DNA of 20,889 nucleotides from a virus: positions 1 to 20,889 of IMG/VR virus record IMGVR_UViG_3300033978_000390. The stretch is one strand, 5' to 3'. How positions within the stretch are numbered: position 1 is the stretch's first letter; each line of letters starts with the position of its first letter. Under the pieces are notes generated by a model. The model was not told where the DNA came from and searched no databases. It saw nothing but the letters and a program-made list of their open reading frames with translations. Both the position numbers and the translations under genes were made by a program. Shown piece by piece: positions 2,773-16,873 of this stretch.

Positions 2773-3300
2773 GTGACCAAGGCAAGCATCAATGACCTCA
2801 GCGCTCCCGGCAAGGAGGCTAAGTCGTTTGACGCTTGGTTCTTCTCACAGCCTAAGAAACTCCAGGAGAAGATGAGGGAGAACGGCGTGCTGCCCTACCG
2901 CGAGATGTCGCAGTCTCGGCACGTCTTCCAAGTGGACGCCAATCATCCGGCATGGTCGACGCGTGACGGGGACAACCTGCGTAAGGAGACGGAAGCGTTC
3001 ATCAGTAGAGATCATGTCGGCGTCATGCTCAAGGGGTTCATCGATGCGCTGGCCGCGACCAATAACTTCACCTGGCGTCGTCACGTCGAGACGGTACGCT
3101 GGGCGTTGTCATTGCCCGGATGCCTGGACTCCCGCACGATCGGCAGGATGTACGGACGCTCGCACTTCTGGCTGCGTAGTCGGGCCAAGGAAATCCAACG
3201 CGCCGTTAACTCTGACGCGTGCGGAATGTTTCCTCACTGTAATGCCAGACGCGACAAACATAAGCAGGCACGACCCCGCCACACACCCGAAGCACGATGA
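2773..3300 (+). CDS. Hypothetical 175-aa protein with central HTH-like segment
   Basis: The start is a GTG at 2773; the first in-frame ATG would remove about 33 residues. The middle (about 100-146) is the most ordered part: WRRHVETVRWALSLPG, then SRTIGRMYGRSHFWLRSRAK, reads like the HTH of a sigma-like or terminase-small-like protein. Two cysteines (C150, C156) and a basic tail follow. Its place just before the packaging genes suggests a late-gene regulator or packaging accessory. Its stop overlaps the ATG of a possible 38-codon ORF (ATGA, 3297-3300). The function is unproven. Confidence 0.65.
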   Translation: MTKASINDLSAPGKEAKSFDAWFFSQPKKLQEKMRENGVLPYREMSQSRHVFQVDANHPAWSTRDGDNLRKETEAFISRDHVGVMLKGFIDALAATNNFTWRRHVETVRWALSLPGCLDSRTIGRMYGRSHFWLRSRAKEIQRAVNSDACGMFPHCNARRDKHKQARPRHTPEAR

Positions 3301-5878: not shown

Positions 5879-5991
5879 CCCTTGGCAACCTATCTTCAAG
5901 GGTACGGCGTTTAGTGTTGTGGGTGGAAGAGACTCATGGCGTGGGCTGGGCGTCGTACCCCCCTTTCGCCTTCCATTGCAGGCATATCTAA
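5879..5991 (+). other. Structured gap between large terminase and gpW-like gene
   Basis: This 113-bp gap carries GGGTACGGCG (5900-5909), which pairs with CGTCGTACCC (5951-5960) over ten positions with one G-U. The loop is about 41 bases. It ends in the TTCCA-N6-GCATAT element just before ATG 5992. No separate ORF fits. It is the only long gap inside the packaging/head block and may be an RNA structure or processing site. Confidence 0.4.
5971..5991 (+). promoter_or_regulatory. Start-proximal motif TTCCA-N6-GCATAT, copy 1
   Basis: TTCCA at 5971-5975, six bases, then GCATAT at 5982-5987 and CTAA directly before ATG 5992. The same elements at the same spacing precede the starts at 8586 and 11827. 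There is no Shine-Dalgarno. Confidence 0.45.
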
Positions 5992-6246
5992 ATGGCCTCT
6001 GGACTCTTTATCGGACTTACGGAGTGCGAACTCCTCGACATCAAAGCCAAGGCGGTCGCCATGATCACCGAAGGCAAGACCCTGATGTCCTACTCCGACT
6101 CCGGCTCGTCCGCGTCCAAGCAGTTCGCCATGCCCCCGAAGGAGATGCTTTCCGAAGCCATGTTCGCCCTGTCGCGTCTCGACCCTGCCACTTACGGCGC
6201 CCGTCGCACGATCATCTCGACCGACTGGCAGAACCGTCAGGACTAA
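5992..6246 (+). CDS. gpW-like head-tail joining protein
   Basis: The protein is 84 residues (lambda gpW is 68). It lies between the large terminase and portal genes, exactly as W does in lambda. It has an N-terminal helix (LTECELLDIKAKAVAMITEGKT), a short hairpin with SYSDSGSS that matches the polar beta segment of gpW, and a second helix (PPKEMLSEAMFALSRLD). gpW is added late in head assembly beneath the portal and allows the tail to attach. Similarity is weak at residue level; synteny and fold pattern carry the call. Confidence 0.75.
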   Translation: MASGLFIGLTECELLDIKAKAVAMITEGKTLMSYSDSGSSASKQFAMPPKEMLSEAMFALSRLDPATYGARRTIISTDWQNRQD

Positions 6247-6252
6247 CTTTCC

Positions 6253-7770
6253 ATGGCCACCCGCAAGAAGATTCCGACCGTCAGCCTGCGTCCTTCCAAG
6301 ACGCCAAAGGCCATGCCAGCCGCCGCCCCGCAGCCGCAAGCCTCCTACGGCGATTGGCAGTCCATCGGCGTGACGCGTGCCCGCCGTGCGGCCTACGGTG
6401 CCGAACCTCGTGACCTTCGCCGTGACCTGACCCCTTACGACCGCCTGACGATGGTCCGCAAGTGCCGCTGGGCCGAGCGTAACTCCGGCCTGTTCAAGCA
6501 AATCCTTGCCGACATCTGCCTCTACACGGTTGGCGACGGCATCAAGCCCCAGAGCCACGCGTCGACCCCTGAGATGCAGGAACGCTATGAGGCTTACTTC
6601 GCCGAGAAGGCCAAGCGCATCGACATCACGAACCGCTTTAGTTTCTACCAGGCTCAGTCCATACTCCTCCGCGGCATGATCCGCGACGGTGATTCCTTCG
6701 CCGCCAAGGTGCGTAACGGCGCCGGGGAGGCCAAACTCCAGCTGATGGAAGCCCACCGCGTCGGCGACCCTCTCGAAGGCAAGGTGCCCGAGGGTATGCA
6801 TGACGGCATCCAGTTCGGTCCGTTCGGCGAATACATCGCCGTCAACATCTACCGTTCCGACGGCTCGTCGCGCCAGATTCTCGCCCAGTCGATGATGATG
6901 GTCGTCGACCAGGAGTACGCGTCCGGCGCCCGTGGCGTCCCCCTGCTCCAGCACTCCATCAACTCCATCCAGGACGAGATGGAAATCCTCGCCCTCGAGA
7001 AGCAGGCCGTGAAGGACAACGGCGACATCACCCGCATCATCAAGAAGCAGGGCGGAGTCATCGACGGGGACATGGCCAACGAACTAGGCAACGCCACCGG
7101 CTCCTATTCCAACCTCGCCAACACGATGGGCGGCAAGGTCATCGCCCTCGAACCCGGTGAGTCGATGGACTCCTTCCAGAGCAACCGCCCGAACGCCACC
7201 TTCAATGGTTTCATCGCCGCCCTCGAACGAGACATCAGCATGGGCATCTTGCCTTACGAGTTTGTCAGCGACCCTTCTAAGCTTGGAGGCGCGTCAATTC
7301 GTCTAGTCACAGCCAAGGCCGCACGGGTATTCGGAAAATATCAGGCCGTGCTGATCGAGAACTTCTGCGTCCCGACTTGGGGCTACATCATCGGACAAGG
7401 TATCGCTGACGGAGACCTGCCTGATGATCCGAAGTGGAATGAAGTCTCCTGGACTACCCCGAAGTCCGTGACCGTTGACGCTGGCCGCGATGCCGCTAAC
7501 GACCGCAACGACGTCGAGATGGGCCTCCTCTCCATGTCCGAACTCTACGCCCAGCGCGGCCTAGACTTCCGCACCGAGATGGACAAGCGGGCCAACGATA
7601 TGGCCTTTATCATCGAGAAAGCCAAGACCGCCAAGATTCCGATTTGGATGCTCTACAAGCCCGACTTCAACTGGCTCCAGCAGGGACAAGCCAACAGCCA
7701 GATTTCAGAAGTCACGGCTGACAACCTCGACCTCCCTCCGCCCCCGGAGCCCGACCAACCCGCTTCCTAA
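6253..7770 (+). CDS. Portal protein, lambda family
   Basis: This 505-residue protein should form the dodecameric DNA channel at one capsid vertex. YDRLTMVRKCRWAERNSGLFKQI (62-84) followed by YTVGDGIKPQ (91-100) matches the opening of lambda gpB-type portals, where an Arg-rich helix precedes a VxGxGI segment. The central part contains the stem and wing region, and SKLGGASIRLVTAKAARVF (about 342-360) is the usual conserved Gly/Ser/Arg helix. The N-terminal 30 residues are basic and Pro/Ala rich. Length fits the family (lambda gpB 533). Codon use between about 7261 and 7480 is less GC-biased than in the flanks. Confidence 0.94.
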   Translation: MATRKKIPTVSLRPSKTPKAMPAAAPQPQASYGDWQSIGVTRARRAAYGAEPRDLRRDLTPYDRLTMVRKCRWAERNSGLFKQILADICLYTVGDGIKPQSHASTPEMQERYEAYFAEKAKRIDITNRFSFYQAQSILLRGMIRDGDSFAAKVRNGAGEAKLQLMEAHRVGDPLEGKVPEGMHDGIQFGPFGEYIAVNIYRSDGSSRQILAQSMMMVVDQEYASGARGVPLLQHSINSIQDEMEILALEKQAVKDNGDITRIIKKQGGVIDGDMANELGNATGSYSNLANTMGGKVIALEPGESMDSFQSNRPNATFNGFIAALERDISMGILPYEFVSDPSKLGGASIRLVTAKAARVFGKYQAVLIENFCVPTWGYIIGQGIADGDLPDDPKWNEVSWTTPKSVTVDAGRDAANDRNDVEMGLLSMSELYAQRGLDFRTEMDKRANDMAFIIEKAKTAKIPIWMLYKPDFNWLQQGQANSQISEVTADNLDLPPPPEPDQPAS

Positions 7771-7777
7771 TTTCATT

Positions 7778-8563
7778 ATGCGTTTCCTCACCAACGGACT
7801 GTCGGGCCGCGAGCCCCTCCTCATCGACCCGACCAAGGCCAAGGACCACGCTGTCCTCGCTGAGAAGTTCGGCTTCACCGATATGCTCGCGCAGCTCTTC
7901 GGCGTGGCCCCCAAGCCCTACGTCGTCGATGGCATCGGCATCATCCCGGTCGTCGGCGTGATCGGCAAGGGACTGTCGCCCCTCGAAAAGATGATGGGCG
8001 CCGTGGATGTGAACGAAGTATCTGAAGCCCTCGACGCGTTCGCCGCCAACCCCGAGGTTGAAAAGGTCGCCCTGCAAATCTCTTCCCCTGGTGGCACGGT
8101 CACCGGCGTCGAAGAACTTGCCAACAAGGTCCGCAACTTCGGCAAGCCGACCCTCGCTTACACCGACTCCGAGATGGCGTCCGCCGCCTATTGGATCGGC
8201 TCCGCTGCCGACCGCGTCGTCGCCAGCCCGTCCAGCACCGTGGGCTCCATCGGCGTGTACATGGCCATCCCCGACTACTCCGAAGCCGCCAAGATGGCCG
8301 GCATCAAGATGGTCGTCATCAAGTCCGGCAAGTTCAAGGGCGCCGGCATCGAAGGCACGTCCCTTGACGAAGGCCAACTCGGCAACCTCCAAGAGGGCGT
8401 CGACACGATCCACGCCGAGTTCAAGGAAGCCGTGAACATGAAGCGCAAGATGGTTAAGGCCGAAGCCATGGAAGGCCAGGTCTTCTCCGGCAAGCAGGCC
8501 GCCGCCCAGGGATTGGTCACGGGTCTGGCCGACTCCTTCAACGACGCCCTGCGTTCGTTCTAA
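7778..8563 (+). CDS. S49-family capsid assembly protease
   Basis: This 261-residue SppA/ClpP-fold serine peptidase corresponds to lambda gpC. The nucleophile is Ser135 in EMASAAYW, after the oxyanion segment SSPGGTV (102-108). The general base is Lys187 in KSGKFKGAG. The Ser-Lys spacing of 52 equals that of the Ser147/Lys199 dyad in B. subtilis SppA. TVGSIGVYM (154-162) is the conserved dimer-interface segment. It should degrade scaffold and mature the prohead. Unlike lambda, the scaffold is not an internal start of this gene but a separate ORF downstream. Confidence 0.93.
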   Translation: MRFLTNGLSGREPLLIDPTKAKDHAVLAEKFGFTDMLAQLFGVAPKPYVVDGIGIIPVVGVIGKGLSPLEKMMGAVDVNEVSEALDAFAANPEVEKVALQISSPGGTVTGVEELANKVRNFGKPTLAYTDSEMASAAYWIGSAADRVVASPSSTVGSIGVYMAIPDYSEAAKMAGIKMVVIKSGKFKGAGIEGTSLDEGQLGNLQEGVDTIHAEFKEAVNMKRKMVKAEAMEGQVFSGKQAAAQGLVTGLADSFNDALRSF

Positions 8564-8585
8564 TTCCATAAACAGCATATTCAAG
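8564..8585 (+). promoter_or_regulatory. Start-proximal motif TTCCA-N6-GCATAT, copy 2
   Basis: TTCCA at 8564-8568, six bases, GCATAT at 8575-8580, then TCAAG and ATG 8586. It occupies the whole gap between the protease stop and the scaffold start. It shares spacing with the copies before 5992 and 11827. Confidence 0.45.
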
Positions 8586-9026
8586 ATGACCATCGAAGAG
8601 CAACTCCTCGCCGCCACCGCCGCCGTCTCTGGCCTCACCGCCGAACGCGACGACCTCCGCACGACTGTGGAAAAGATGACGGTCGGCGTCTCTGCCGAAC
8701 TCGAAAGCCTCAAGGTCGAAGCCGCGTCCAAGGACGCCAAGCTCGCCGAACTGACCGCCGCCCTCGAAGTGGCCGTCAAGGAGTCCGAGTCCTTCAAGGC
8801 CCTCGTCGAGCAGCACGAAGCCACCAAGGTCAGCGCCTCCAAGGAAGCCGCCAAGATCGTGGCCTCCGTCGGCGTCTCCCCGGTCGAACTCAGCCCCGCG
8901 GATGGCAAGCCCACCGCCGAAGCCGTCGACCACCTCGCGACCTTCATGTCCCTCCCTGTCGGCAGCAAAGAGCGTAACGCTTACTTCGCCGAACACCGCA
9001 ACGCCATCATCAAGGCGTGCATCTAA
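8586..9026 (+). CDS. Candidate head scaffolding protein
   Basis: This 146-residue protein sits between the protease and the major capsid genes, the Nu3 position. Residues 1-85 form a heptad-rich, Glu/Ala/Lys-dominated coiled coil (ERDDLRTTVEKM, then KDAKLAELTAALEVAVKE). The C-terminal part (about 110-146) is a compact helical patch, TAEAVDHLATFMSLPVGSKE. A coiled coil with a small C-terminal capsid-binding segment is the normal scaffold design. It is presumably removed by the upstream S49 protease. The name rests on position and architecture, not on sequence match. Confidence 0.75.
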   Translation: MTIEEQLLAATAAVSGLTAERDDLRTTVEKMTVGVSAELESLKVEAASKDAKLAELTAALEVAVKESESFKALVEQHEATKVSASKEAAKIVASVGVSPVELSPADGKPTAEAVDHLATFMSLPVGSKERNAYFAEHRNAIIKACI

Positions 9027-9060
9027 TTTCCCCCTAACCTCAATCTCCTAAAACACACAT

Positions 9061-9930
9061 ATGGCTAACTCCATTGCTAACGCTCCGGCTATCCTCGCGG
9101 AAGCCGTCATCGCTTCCCTCAAGGGCAAGCTCCCGTCCCTCCGTGCCTTCTCCAGCGTCTTCACCGCCGCTGAGTCGGGTGCCGGCAAGACCGTCCAGGT
9201 TCCCCTGATCGGCGTCTCCACCGCTACCGAGTTCGGTTCCGGCGGATACCTGACCCAGGACGACGCGACGATCACTGCCGCCAACGTCACCCTGAAGCAC
9301 TTCAAGGTCTCGTCCCGCTTCTCGCCCCTCGACGTCAAGTCGTACGGCGCGCAGTTCCTCTCGAACGCCTTCGTTCCGACGGCCTCCAACGCCCTCGCTG
9401 AAAAGTGCCTCGCTGAAATCGGCGCCCTCATCCTGAACGCCAACTACGCCTCCAGCGTGGACACCGGCGCGGCCCTCACCTACGCTGAAGTCGTCACCGC
9501 CAAGGGCGTGCTCGACGCCGCCAAGGCCGCTGAACCCCGCGCGTTCATCCTCAACCCGACCTACGCCAACGGCCTCCTCGGCGACGCGACCATCATCGGC
9601 AACTCCGTCCTCGGTGCCGGCATCCTGACCTCCGGCCAGATCGGTACCCTCGCTGGTGCCGCCGTCTACCAGTGGAACAGCCTCCCGACGAACAGCGAAA
9701 ACCTCGCTGGCTTCGCCTGCGGCGCTGACGCCATCGCTGTGGCCTCGGCCCTCCCGATGTCGGAAATCCCTGGCTTCGAAGTCGCCAACGCTGTCGACGC
9801 GGACACCGGCCTCGGCGTCCAGATCCTCATGGGTCAGGAACAGTCCGGCTTCTACAACGTCACCGCCACGCTGCTCTTCGGTGCCGCTGTCGGTCGCGCG
9901 ACCTCCCTGCACCGCCTCAAGACCGCCTAA
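9061..9930 (+). CDS. Major capsid protein, HK97 fold
   Basis: This 289-residue protein is the expected shell subunit. It follows protease and scaffold and is followed by a strong terminator, consistent with a highly expressed gene. The N-terminal helix (SIANAPAILAEAVIASLKGKLPSLRAFSSVF) precedes an extended loop (about 43-80), then a mixed alpha/beta P- and A-domain with VVTAKGVLDAAKAAEPRAF and FILNPTYANGLLGD, typical of P22/HK97-type coat proteins. Codons are the most uniformly biased of the window, fitting high expression. No decoration protein gene accompanies it. Confidence 0.88.
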   Translation: MANSIANAPAILAEAVIASLKGKLPSLRAFSSVFTAAESGAGKTVQVPLIGVSTATEFGSGGYLTQDDATITAANVTLKHFKVSSRFSPLDVKSYGAQFLSNAFVPTASNALAEKCLAEIGALILNANYASSVDTGAALTYAEVVTAKGVLDAAKAAEPRAFILNPTYANGLLGDATIIGNSVLGAGILTSGQIGTLAGAAVYQWNSLPTNSENLAGFACGADAIAVASALPMSEIPGFEVANAVDADTGLGVQILMGQEQSGFYNVTATLLFGAAVGRATSLHRLKTA

Positions 9931-9951
9931 TAGCGGCCCAAGGTTCAAACG

Positions 9952-9978
9952 AGGCTCCCAGCAATGGGGGCCTTTTTT
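9952..9978 (+). terminator. Intrinsic terminator after the capsid gene
   Basis: AGGCTCCCA (9952-9960) pairs with TGGGGGCCT (9965-9973) around a GCAA tetraloop: nine pairs with one G-U. Six Ts follow at 9973-9978. This is a canonical rho-independent terminator 22 bases after the capsid stop. Confidence 0.88.
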
Positions 9979-10008
9979 GTGCCCTAATCCAATCCGGGCA
10001 AGTATAGG

Positions 10009-10389
10009 ATGAGCCTCTACGGAACCGAGTTTCTCAATGACGCCAAAGAGATGGTGGCGGACTTCGGCGTGGCCGGGTCGGCCAACTCCGGGGCCATCAC
10101 CTTCTCCTGCCTCATCTCCGACCCCGCCGTCTCGACCGTGCTCGAAGCAGGGGGGTATATGGAACGGACCCAGTACTCGGTCAGGCTCCCCGCTGTAACG
10201 GCCTCCTGGAGCCAGCCAGACGGGTCTATGGGGGCATCGGCGGCCCTACTCTCGGCAGGGGTGCCCATCGCCTCCCTAGGCCAAGGCAAGAAAATCGTAG
10301 CCGGCGGGAAGACCGTCCGCATCACCAGCCAGACCTACAAGCCCGGGTCGGCCTGGATCACGCTCGTCGTCATCGACGATAACCAGTAA
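10009..10389 (+). CDS. Head-tail joining protein, FII-like
   Basis: This 126-residue, beta-rich protein directly follows the capsid gene, the FII position of lambda. The pattern ISDPAVSTVLEAGGYMERTQYSVRLP, then GKKIVAGGKTVRITSQTYKPGSAWITLVV fits the small barrel of gpFII-like connectors, which often read as 'variables-defined, strand, Gly-rich turn, strand'. It would seal the head and accept the preformed tail. The start is the ATG at 10009; TATAGG directly abuts it and is too close to act as a Shine-Dalgarno. Confidence 0.72.
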   Translation: MSLYGTEFLNDAKEMVADFGVAGSANSGAITFSCLISDPAVSTVLEAGGYMERTQYSVRLPAVTASWSQPDGSMGASAALLSAGVPIASLGQGKKIVAGGKTVRITSQTYKPGSAWITLVVIDDNQ

Positions 10390-10393
10390 AGCC

Positions 10394-11362
10394 GTGGTCA
10401 AGGTCTCGATTGAGCCCAAGTCTCAGGCTGAGTTTATTTCCGCCCTGCGTCAGTTCGCCGCCGACTGCGGCTTGACGATGCGTGACGCCTGCGTCGAACA
10501 AGCAGCGCTTGCCTGCGTAGACGCGGCAACCTTTACCCCTCCGATGCCCAAGGGCGGGGGCCGTGGTCTGACCAAGGACGCGCAACGAGCTGGAAATAAC
10601 GCCATCGACGGCGACGTCCGCAAGATGTTCGTGGCCGCCGACGACAAGACTTCCAAGGCAGCCCCTGGGCTACTGATGAACCAGATGGCCTACGCCGTAA
10701 AGTCAGGCAACTTCGGTTCATTTCAGAAAATCATGGCCTCTGGCCACTTAGTCGGGATGAACAAAATCCCGCCCATCGTCCGCAAGATTGCCGGCGACCA
10801 GAACTACGATCGCGCGTTCAAGAAGGCCAAGAACTACTATAACACGACCAACATCATCCTTTCCGACTATGGAACGCAGGGCTTCGTCCAAGAAATTAAG
10901 CCCAACCATAACCGCATTAAGGGCAAGTTCGGCGGCCGCATCCCTTTGAAGGTTCGCCCGGTCAAGGTGCCCATGCTCGTGGACAGCGCCAAGGATTTGA
11001 AGGCATACATCGAGGAACGGCAACTAATGGTCGGCTCAATCAAGTCAGGATGGTTGATGGCCCTTCTATCCCTGCCCAAGCCCATCATCAAGGGCGTTCC
11101 CAAGAATGTCGGCGTCGAGCTGATGAAGCCCGCCTGGATTAAGCGCCATAACAACACCATCGGGCGTAGCACCACTAACGCCAATCAGAACCTCGTCGAA
11201 GTCTCGGTCATTAACACCAACGGCAACGTCAACAACATCGCCGTCACCGCTGACACCCTTGGTTTAGTCTATGGCAATCGGGTAAAGCAAATGCGCGACC
11301 GATTTAAAACGCACTTCAGCGACACCATCAAAACAACCAATAATAAGCGCCGCATCCGCTAA
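10394..11362 (+). CDS. Tail completion protein, Z / HK97 gp10-like
   Basis: The start is a GTG at 10394, five bases after the previous stop. The 322-residue protein is longer than lambda gpZ (192). Its N-terminus (SQAEFISALRQFAADCGLTMRDACVEQAALACVDAATFTPP) matches the helical opening of gp10/gpZ-type proteins, in which a long helix leads to a TPP turn. The C-terminal third (KSGWLMALLSLPKP, then KPAWIKRHNN) contains the usual 'aGWl...pawI+rH' type segment. It should cap the tail before head joining. The middle (about 100-220) is rich in Asn and Lys and is probably an insertion. Codon bias is weaker than in the head genes. Confidence 0.65.
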   Translation: MVKVSIEPKSQAEFISALRQFAADCGLTMRDACVEQAALACVDAATFTPPMPKGGGRGLTKDAQRAGNNAIDGDVRKMFVAADDKTSKAAPGLLMNQMAYAVKSGNFGSFQKIMASGHLVGMNKIPPIVRKIAGDQNYDRAFKKAKNYYNTTNIILSDYGTQGFVQEIKPNHNRIKGKFGGRIPLKVRPVKVPMLVDSAKDLKAYIEERQLMVGSIKSGWLMALLSLPKPIIKGVPKNVGVELMKPAWIKRHNNTIGRSTTNANQNLVEVSVINTNGNVNNIAVTADTLGLVYGNRVKQMRDRFKTHFSDTIKTTNNKRRIR

Positions 11363-11367
11363 CCTTT

Positions 11368-11802
11368 ATGGGCACCAAATCCATCCGTCACATCGTCGAG
11401 GCCACCCTCGCGACCTACCTTTCGACCCAGACTGGGTTGACCGCCGTCACGTTCCTCACCGGGGACAGCGCCGCGACCCAGACCCTGCCCAAGGCCGTGG
11501 TCCTCTGCGACTCCGCCCGTGCCCCTGGCGACCTCCCCGAGGGTTTAGGCAACTACTCTTGCTCGGTCCGCATCACCCTCTTCTCCAACGCCGACGACAC
11601 GACCCTCGCCGATCACCGTGCCCGCTGCGCCGCCCTGTCCGGCAATATGCGTGACCTGACCAGCATCAAGGCGGCCTTCGTCACCTCGACCGACGCGACC
11701 TGCTACGATGTCATCATCGGGTCCGAAGACGAGGGCATCGATGAACGCTCCTGGGCGACCGCTTTCTCGTTCGACGTGCTCGTGGTCCTGCCCGCCGCCT
11801 AA
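11368..11802 (+). CDS. Tail terminator protein, U-like
   Basis: This 144-residue protein (lambda gpU is 131) opens with a helix (KSIRHIVEATLATYLSTQTG) and then alternates strands and helices with GNYSCSVRITLFSN and SWATAFSFDVLVV. This is the alpha/beta layout of gpU-like tail terminators, which form a ring that ends tube growth. It lies between the Z-like and tube genes, as in lambda. Call by synteny and fold pattern. Confidence 0.72.
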   Translation: MGTKSIRHIVEATLATYLSTQTGLTAVTFLTGDSAATQTLPKAVVLCDSARAPGDLPEGLGNYSCSVRITLFSNADDTTLADHRARCAALSGNMRDLTSIKAAFVTSTDATCYDVIIGSEDEGIDERSWATAFSFDVLVVLPAA

Positions 11803-11805
11803 TCA

Positions 11806-11826
11806 TTCCAAAGCCCGCATATTCAA
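11806..11826 (+). promoter_or_regulatory. Start-proximal motif TTCCA-N6-GCATAT, copy 3
   Basis: TTCCA at 11806-11810, six bases, GCATAT at 11817-11822, then TCAA and ATG 11827. It lies in the 24-bp gap before the tail tube gene and matches the copies before 5992 and 8586 in sequence and spacing. Confidence 0.45.
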
Positions 11827-12204
11827 ATGGCCGCCATCTCTAACGGAACCACCTGCATCTACGGTATCGCCGGTACTGTCACCAACCTCTTCGTCCAGAG
11901 TTACACCCTCACGTCCTCGTTCAACTCCGAGGCCACGGTCGTCGATGAAAATGGCCTGACCAAGACCCACCGTCTCGATGACCGCAAGTCCGAGATCACG
12001 GTTGAAGGCATCGCTAAGACTGCCACCATGCCCGCCCTCGGCGCCAGTCTCTCTTTCACGACGAACACCGCTTCGGCCTATCCCTCTGGCTCCGCTTCGA
12101 CTTCTTTCTCGGGAGTCATCACGAAGATTGATGACAAGGGTTCGTCCCAAGGCTTCACGTCGGTGTCCATCACGGCCATCGACTACGAAGGCATCTCGAT
12201 GTAA
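11827..12204 (+). CDS. Major tail tube protein (V-like, short)
   Basis: This 125-residue, beta-rich, Ser/Thr-rich protein follows the tail terminator gene and precedes the chaperone and tape-measure genes. The core (SYTLTSSFNSEATVVDENG, then HRLDDRKSEITVEGIAK) is a common tube-subunit pattern in which paired strands form the inner barrel. The C-terminal half (STSFSGVITKIDDKGSSQGFTSVSITAID) completes the barrel. Lambda gpV is 246 residues with a separate Ig-like domain; this version has only the tube domain. Confidence 0.75.
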   Translation: MAAISNGTTCIYGIAGTVTNLFVQSYTLTSSFNSEATVVDENGLTKTHRLDDRKSEITVEGIAKTATMPALGASLSFTTNTASAYPSGSASTSFSGVITKIDDKGSSQGFTSVSITAIDYEGISM

Positions 12205-12238: not shown

Positions 12239-12856
12239 GTGGACCGACGCTTCTTAAATGCCTATGTCGACCCGGCGCCTTTTCGGCTGCTGGGTCGTTT
12301 GCTTTACCCCTGGTGCCTCAAGTACCGGGTGCGTCTGATGGCCTTGGACTCCCCGCTTCTGACGGGCTCCCGCGGCGTCACCCCTGCCGACCTTGTCTTC
12401 GCCTGCCAAGTGTGCGCCGAAGAGCAACTCGGGGCAATCGGCTGGCGGGACCAGCTGCGGATCGTCAGCCTCGAGAACAACCCTGCCAAGTTCGAGCGCC
12501 TGCTGGAAGCCTTCGCCGGCTACATCCTCGTCCAAGACTGGCCCAAGTTCTGGGAGCAGTCCAAAGCCAAGGCGGGCGGGGGCGGCGACAAGGGCGTTCC
12601 GTGGCCCCTGTCCATCGTGGCCAACCTCATCGCCAACGGCATCGAAGAGAAGCGGGCGTGGGAGATGCCCGAGTGTCAGGCCATCTGGCTCAACTCCGCC
12701 CTGGCTATCCGCAAGGGTGCGGACGTGGCGATCATGTCCCCGGAGGAGGAAGCCTTCATCGCCGAAGAACTGGCCAAGGAGCAGGCCGCCACGGCTGCGC
12801 CCCCTTCCAATCCTGCAAAGGAAACACCCGACGATGGCACAATCCCTGGAGCTTAA
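12239..12856 (+). CDS. Tail assembly chaperone candidate (G-like)
   Basis: The 205-residue protein starts at GTG 12239. It lies between the tube and tape-measure genes, where tail chaperones occur. Residues 48-100 are helical (TPADLVFACQVCAEEQL, FERLLEAFAGYILV). RAWEMPECQAIWLNSALAIRKG (139-160) resembles the conserved C-terminal helix of such chaperones, followed by an acidic stretch PEEEAFIAEELAKEQ. The gene overlaps the tape-measure start by 23 bases. I found no convincing slippery heptamer, so a G/GT-type frameshift product is not supported. It would hold the tape measure during tube assembly. Confidence 0.6.
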   Translation: MDRRFLNAYVDPAPFRLLGRLLYPWCLKYRVRLMALDSPLLTGSRGVTPADLVFACQVCAEEQLGAIGWRDQLRIVSLENNPAKFERLLEAFAGYILVQDWPKFWEQSKAKAGGGGDKGVPWPLSIVANLIANGIEEKRAWEMPECQAIWLNSALAIRKGADVAIMSPEEEAFIAEELAKEQAATAAPPSNPAKETPDDGTIPGA

Positions 12857-16520: not shown

Positions 16521-16552
16521 CCCCCTTCCATCCTACGCAAGAATAAGACCCG

Positions 16553-16873
16553 ATGAGCTGCCCAAACACCGTCACCATCTCGAGGGGCAATTCCTTCGCC
16601 TGCGTATTCTCGTGGACTCCCGGCGCCTCCGGCCCTGCCAACCTCCTGACCACGACCCTCTCCTCGACCTTCGAGGACAAGCAGTTCAACCAGTACCAGA
16701 TGACCGTCACCAAGGCGGGCGACGGCCTGTCCTTCACGGTGGCCTACCCCGGCTCGACGGCTGACTGGGCCATCGGCCTCGGGCGCTGGGACATCAAGTT
16801 CGTCTTCCCCGGCTCGTCCGTGACCCGTTCGGAAATCTTCCGCGTCAACGTCATCGACTCCGTCACCGTCTGA
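16553..16873 (+). CDS. Small beta-sandwich tail protein, fibre-proximal
   Basis: This 106-residue protein precedes the fibre gene by four bases. The pattern TVTISRGNSFACVFSWTP, then FEDKQFNQYQMTVTKAGDGLSF and WAIGLGRWDIKFVFPGSSVTRSEIFRVNVI is a seven-strand-like sandwich. It recalls the N-terminal domain of baseplate BppU-type proteins, which attach fibres to the tail tip. Likely a fibre adaptor. The call is by pattern and position. Confidence 0.5.
   Translation: MSCPNTVTISRGNSFACVFSWTPGASGPANLLTTTLSSTFEDKQFNQYQMTVTKAGDGLSFTVAYPGSTADWAIGLGRWDIKFVFPGSSVTRSEIFRVNVIDSVTV

Follow-up and report, generated by a model that had tools for sequence, protein, structure and literature searches.

What does a short sequence do that recurs just before the start codons of several late genes of an uncultured phage: is it read in DNA, as a promoter or regulator site, or in mRNA, as a translation signal? 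The question arises from IMG/VR virus record IMGVR_UViG_3300033978_000390, the whole of which (20,889 bases) was analysed here and is called the window. An original prediction, made from the letters of the window alone, had noted TTCCA, six bases and GCATAT ahead of three genes labelled gpW-like, scaffold and tail tube, all without a Shine-Dalgarno (SD) sequence, and had offered three readings: a non-SD initiation element, an overlapping promoter giving very short leaders, or a site for an early-encoded regulator. We report that this motif is genuine and forms part of a late-gene element that is specific to the phages and conserved in hundreds of relatives. We argue that the element is probably a 20-bp phage-specific late promoter, at whose last base (A19, counting from T0) transcription would start, giving near-leaderless mRNAs.

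Results

The element in the window

The exact motif TTCCA-N6-GCATAT occurs three times in the window (5971-5987, 8564-8580 and 11806-11822), on the + strand only, at the positions predicted and with the ATG 4, 5 and 4 bases past GCATAT, as had been claimed; dinucleotide shuffles yielded none (0.00 expected). When two mismatches were permitted, the count was not significant (five in the window against 2.3 expected) and the signal therefore resides in the exact form. The full 20-base pattern derived from relatives, TNCCAWN5GCAWN4A, matches the window four times against 0.07 expected and, together with a copy at 9987 whose first T is changed, brings the copies to five, beginning at 5971, 8564, 9987, 11806 and 16526 (Table 1). 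The copies at 9987-10006 and 16526-16545 had been missed, so that the three genes first named hold but the count was incomplete: five genes carry the element, and six in some relatives.

Conservation in related phages

About 200 loci of related viral contigs were collected via the terminase, the protease and the motif itself; orthologous starts were placed by tblastn and the 60 bases upstream were compared. The conserved signal is T0-N-C2-C3-A4-W5-N5-G11-C12-A13-W14-N4-A19, with rigid internal spacing. Across 88 distinct cores, information content reaches 2.0 bits at T0, C2, C3, A4, G11, C12 and A13, 1.9 bits at A19 and 1.2 bits at W5 and W14, with mostly 0.2-0.6 bits in the flanks. The six bases between the boxes are essentially free (52 different hexamers in the same cores), which, with the divergent flanks, indicates that the boxes were retained while their surroundings changed. 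CCA-6-GCA ranked top across genes in an exhaustive count of gapped trinucleotide pairs. Within the core first described as GCATAT, the GCA part stands, but TAT is merely a common variant, orthologous sites reading GCAAG, GCAAA, GCAAT or GCATAT.

Counted over distinct orthologous upstreams, which are mutually related and hence not independent events, the full element precedes gene 5992 in 57/57, gene 8586 in 53/57, gene 10009 in 41/43 (the window copy being one of the two deviants), gene 11827 in 59/60, gene 16553 in 29/29 and gene 11368 in 23/67. It was found in none of 614 upstreams of primase/helicase, gene 2773, TerS, TerL, portal, protease, major capsid protein and genes 10394, 12239, 12834 and 13727, and mononucleotide-shuffled upstreams gave six matches in 19,380. 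Ten phage contigs of 13-33 kb hold four to six copies each, all on the coding strand, with none antisense and none in a reversed-pattern control; every copy lies in the late region downstream of TerL. The original prediction had taken identical spacing as the mark of a real signal, a view to be abandoned if the motif were absent upstream of orthologous genes or as frequent inside coding sequence; in the event the element sits on nearly all orthologue upstreams and is essentially absent elsewhere.

The served genes offer no simple rule. The suggestion that they encode proteins needed in defined amounts does not separate them, as the portal, protease and major capsid protein genes do without the element. 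The names gpW, scaffold and tail tube agree with gene order, but no family or PDB sequence match supports them: the product of gene 5992 has no family match and is gpW by position only, that of gene 8586 has no significant family match and that of gene 11827 has neither a family match nor a significant PDB match. PHROGs confirmed the terminase, portal, protease and major capsid protein.

Host and Shine-Dalgarno background

Close relatives, with terminase identities of 89% and 83%, were binned in Opitutales and Opitutae metagenome-assembled genomes (MAGs); judged indirectly, from this binning of phage contigs, the phage group, which is abundant and uncultured, probably infects Opitutae. Among the matches listed, the named phage with the lowest terminase E-value was Verrucomicrobia phage P8625, at ~24% identity. 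With phage contigs set aside, the element stood at chance or control level in two Opitutae MAGs carrying relatives, so we reject the idea that it serves the host at large as a promoter or translation signal.

A search for GGAG, GAGG or AGGA about 5-15 bases before the ATG found no SD sequence at any of the five sites, in agreement with the earlier statement for three of them. This absence is true but distinguishes nothing, for crude gene calls of two likely host MAGs showed no SD excess (9% and 10%, against 6% and 10% at control positions). The missing SD thus looks like a trait of the lineage and the element like a phage signal. Verrucomicrobia have been reported to be SD-scarce (PMC10783764).

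A fixed A19, a floating start codon and a terminator

Of 118 distinct cores, 117 have A at position 19, whereas the ATG follows T0 by 19, 20, 21, 22, 23, 25, 26, 27 or 52 bases, that is, 0-8 bases past A19 or, in three upstreams, 33 bases past it. Leader length has changed independently before several genes: relatives carry either GGCAAGTTTAA or GGCAAGTTTATCCCAT directly before the ATG of the gpW-position gene, and either AAG or AAGACT before that of the scaffold-position gene. In the gene 10009 orthologue of locus L234, A19 coincides with the A of the ATG; in loci L105, L115 and L129, a 31-base insert, GCCTAACCCGCTAAAAATTTTTTACCCTCT, separates an intact element from the ATG of the tail tube orthologue. 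T or C predominates at position 18, and the resulting Y-A at positions 18-19 is in keeping with a bacterial initiator. An element read in mRNA for ribosome placement should be constrained in its distance to the ATG; here that distance floats and it is A19 that stays locked.

The 31-base insert occurs on two different element backgrounds; its presence goes with a shifted start codon and an added Cys in the protein.

A strong intrinsic terminator lies directly past the major capsid gene, ahead of copy 3 (Table 1). Its hairpin and T run are kept in 44/44 distinct upstreams, with covarying stems (compensating changes GAGGCTCCC/GGGGGCC, GAGACCCCC/GGGGGTC and AGGGCTCC/GGGGCCCT). Between the T run and the ATG of gene 10009 there are only about 30 bases, most of them occupied by the element, which begins a few bases past the T run.

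Table 1. Copies of the element, the genes that follow them and associated features of the window.
Feature	Position	Strand	Description
Element copy 1	5971..5990	+	TTCCATTGCAGGCATATCTA; exact match to TNCCAWN5GCAWN4A; proposed start A 5990, 2-nt leader, ATG 5992
Element copy 2	8564..8583	+	TTCCATAAACAGCATATTCA; pattern match; proposed start A 8583, 3-nt leader, ATG 8586
Element copy 3	9987..10006	+	ATCCAATCCGGGCAAGTATA; first T replaced by A; proposed start A 10006, 3-nt leader, ATG 10009
Element copy 4	11806..11825	+	TTCCAAAGCCCGCATATTCA; pattern match; proposed start A 11825, 2-nt leader, ATG 11827
Element copy 5	16526..16545	+	TTCCATCCTACGCAAGAATA; pattern match; proposed start A 16545, 8-nt leader, ATG 16553
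Copy 1 gene	5992..6246	+	Open reading frame, 84 amino acids, between TerL and portal (gpW position)
Copy 2 gene	8586..9026	+	Open reading frame, 146 amino acids, between protease and major capsid protein (scaffold position)
Copy 3 gene	10009..10389	+	Open reading frame, 126 amino acids
Copy 4 gene	11827..12204	+	Open reading frame, 125 amino acids (tail tube position)
Copy 5 gene	16553..16873	+	Open reading frame, 106 amino acids
Intrinsic terminator	9951..9980	+	Major capsid gene to copy 3; 10-bp stem, 6 G-C pairs, T run
Candidate late regulator	2773..3300	+	175 amino acids, just upstream of the small terminase gene; conserved in relatives; helix-turn-helix-like C-terminal pattern by eye

Other start regions and genome organisation

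The major capsid gene follows a 34-base gap (9027-9060) that lacks the element; a conserved C/A/T-rich leader of its own stands there instead (TAATTTCCCTCAACCCTCA...ACACACCATG in relatives) and may represent a start signal of another type. Before gene 12834 (12790-12834), within the overlapping previous gene, stands the related-looking TTCCAATCCTGCAAAGGAAA, with N5 spacing and conserved in relatives, which may be an SD-like AAAGGAA or a degenerate element.

The contig of relative G004 (loci L250 and L251), at 32,851 bases, repeats its ends with a period of 28,230, indicating a complete genome of 28,230 bp. Compared with relative G013, the window is missing an early region of ~9 kb that includes ERF-like, PDDEXK, SSB-like and dNMP-kinase-like genes.

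Discussion

Of the three readings first offered, the overlapping promoter, with its very short leaders, fares best: the final conserved base keeps its place in the element although the start codon shifts, and one copy stands immediately past a covarying terminator. The lack of use of the element in the likely host MAGs speaks against a non-SD initiation signal of host type. As a promoter, the element would place late transcription starts at five genes (six in some relatives), 0-8 bases ahead of the ATG, leaving mRNAs leaderless or nearly so, which would suit a host lineage that apparently makes little use of SD pairing. At copy 3, transcription would restart past the terminator, 3 bases before the ATG. 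A promoter with its start at A19 would account for the locked base, the floating ATG and the terminator alike. A free N6 would be expected if two recognised boxes lay about one DNA turn apart. Host RNA polymerase, diverted to the element by a phage protein, would do the reading, a mechanism made probable by the lack of a -35/-10 hexamer and by the failure of hosts to use the element. More tentatively, a phage factor may redirect the Opitutae RNA polymerase to an undescribed two-box promoter (CCA at about -17, GCA at about -8, A at +1), with near-leaderless late genes throughout the group.

Several points weigh against a promoter. TTGACA/TATAAT-like sigma-70 hexamers 16-18 bases apart are present at none of the five sites, -35 conservation is lacking and a scan of the region found three sigma-70-type pairs where 2.7 were expected. 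Nor did inspection of either strand reveal a sigma-54 promoter (GG at -24 and GC at -12, TGGCAC-N5-TTGC), the element offering CCA and GCA with a CC-to-GC offset of ~9. Neither a phage RNA polymerase nor a sigma factor was found, and on the coding strand of the early regions of G004 and G013 no open reading frame has the size of a single-subunit phage polymerase, the longest encoding a DnaB-like protein of 436 amino acids. With the exception of three distinct upstreams, every site is no more than 8 bases from the ATG, as would also be expected of a translation signal. The main escape from the argument built on the terminator is antitermination, which could carry late transcription through it.

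From the missing sigma-70 pair, the lack of a polymerase-sized early reading frame and the 28,230-bp genome of G004 we infer a phage factor, and the promoter nature of the element and A19 as +1 are likewise deduced from sequence. By position and conservation, the protein encoded at 2773-3300 is a candidate for that factor; it has no Pfam or PHROG match and its AlphaFold model is of low confidence (pLDDT 44).

We rank a promoter first and a phage-specific translation element acting at the RNA level second. In the latter, a 30S-associated or phage factor would bind CCA-N6-GCA in the mRNA and recruit ribosomes to genes with no scope for translational coupling to their predecessor, as would fit an element always found directly before a start codon, lacking from window genes that start less than about 10 bases after the preceding stop, in phages of an SD-poor lineage. 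We nevertheless think it unlikely, though deserving of attention, as the ATG distance varies (19-27 bases, once 52) around a locked A19, host genes do not use the signal, the major capsid and terminase genes lack it despite long gaps and no conserved hairpin accompanies it, the few column pairs that rose above shuffles forming no helix. A hairpin at the site was itself rejected as a candidate, with no consistent helix in single-strand folds at three of the five sites or in column-pair tests. More doubtful still is a DNA site for a phage regulator, an operator or stoperator that would delay or tune late genes by overlapping promoters or blocking elongating polymerase. Two boxes one helical turn apart, private to the phages and in a single orientation, would be in keeping with such a site, and a part in transcription control is known for Cluster A stoperators (mentioned in PMC3203893); yet the copies stay at start codons rather than being scattered through intergenic space, an operator alone leaves the strong A19 unexplained and inspection found no full dyad symmetry.

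A sequence-specific RNA processing site, trimming the polycistronic late transcript before certain start codons, would also yield 5' ends at a fixed base of the element beside the ATG, but it leaves the terminator before copy 3 unexplained, and no candidate nuclease was seen, although no search for one was made; we consider it very improbable. Chance repetition or duplicated intergenic sequence has nothing to commend it beyond a few copies in one genome, and its probability is negligible: the exact form is absent from shuffles, CCA-6-GCA is, among all pairs tested, the gapped trinucleotide pair common to most genes, and the completely different inter-box spacers mean that the copies are not recent duplicates. 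The distribution of copies in the ten contigs and the counts over orthologous upstreams refute it.

Phage late promoters served by host polymerase redirected through a phage activator or sigma-like factor resemble the element in their few dispersed late-gene copies, rigid spacing and initiator-like Y-A; the element differs in lacking a -35/-10 hexamer, in lying unusually near start codons and in having only a candidate reading factor. The closest known kind is the Start-Associated Sequences (SAS) of Cluster K mycobacteriophages (PMC3203893), whose role was still ill-defined in 2024 and whose extended form is thought to hold a promoter (PMC11373665). Both are short, asymmetric and phage-private, lie a few bases ahead of start codons and almost always point the same way, are essentially missing from the host and persist across their groups (subclusters, for SAS); for our element, start-proximal single orientation was seen in the ten contigs and host absence in the two MAGs. 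However, SAS is a contiguous 13-mer, GGGATAGGAGCCC, that contains an SD core and marks non-structural genes in 11-19 copies, whereas the 20 bases of our element are split, lack an SD, end in a fixed A and mark five or six late genes; the logo of the 88 distinct cores does not fit the 13-bp SAS consensus, and restriction to non-structural genes was not found.

P8625 and its relatives carry a different start-proximal sequence, TTGACA plus the inverted repeat GTATCC-N5-GGATAC, with TTGAC ~36 bases before the ATG and four copies in P8625; the P8625 genome paper does not mention promoters. It shares with our element the kind of host, corresponding genes (after TerL and later tail genes) and an end a few bases from the ATG, but differs in its canonical -35-like TTGACA and its palindrome, a combination of promoter-like and palindromic parts that recalls the extended SAS. 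It seems to solve the same problem in another way; a resemblance between the two elements as TCCA-N6-G(C/G)ATA is suggestive only. In P8625-like phages, TTGAC(A)-N9/10-GTATCC-N5-(T)GGATAC stands just before late-gene ATGs in loci L145 (5412, 10736, 15558 and 17499), L236 (2625 and 7948), L284 (7711 and 13373) and L294 (9929).

Conclusions

Phages of uncultured Verrucomicrobiota are abundant in the viral contig collection searched, and our literature search found no paper on late promoters of Opitutae phages or on how phages of such hosts time gene expression. The element supplies a sharp map of five candidate late transcription starts, and across hundreds of IMG/VR contigs it helps to decide which start codon to call. 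With it, start-associated sequences, whose function in mycobacteriophages has been open since 2011, gain a second and better resolved example. If the element is indeed a promoter, it would tie promoter position to the start codon in a lineage where SD pairing plays little part.

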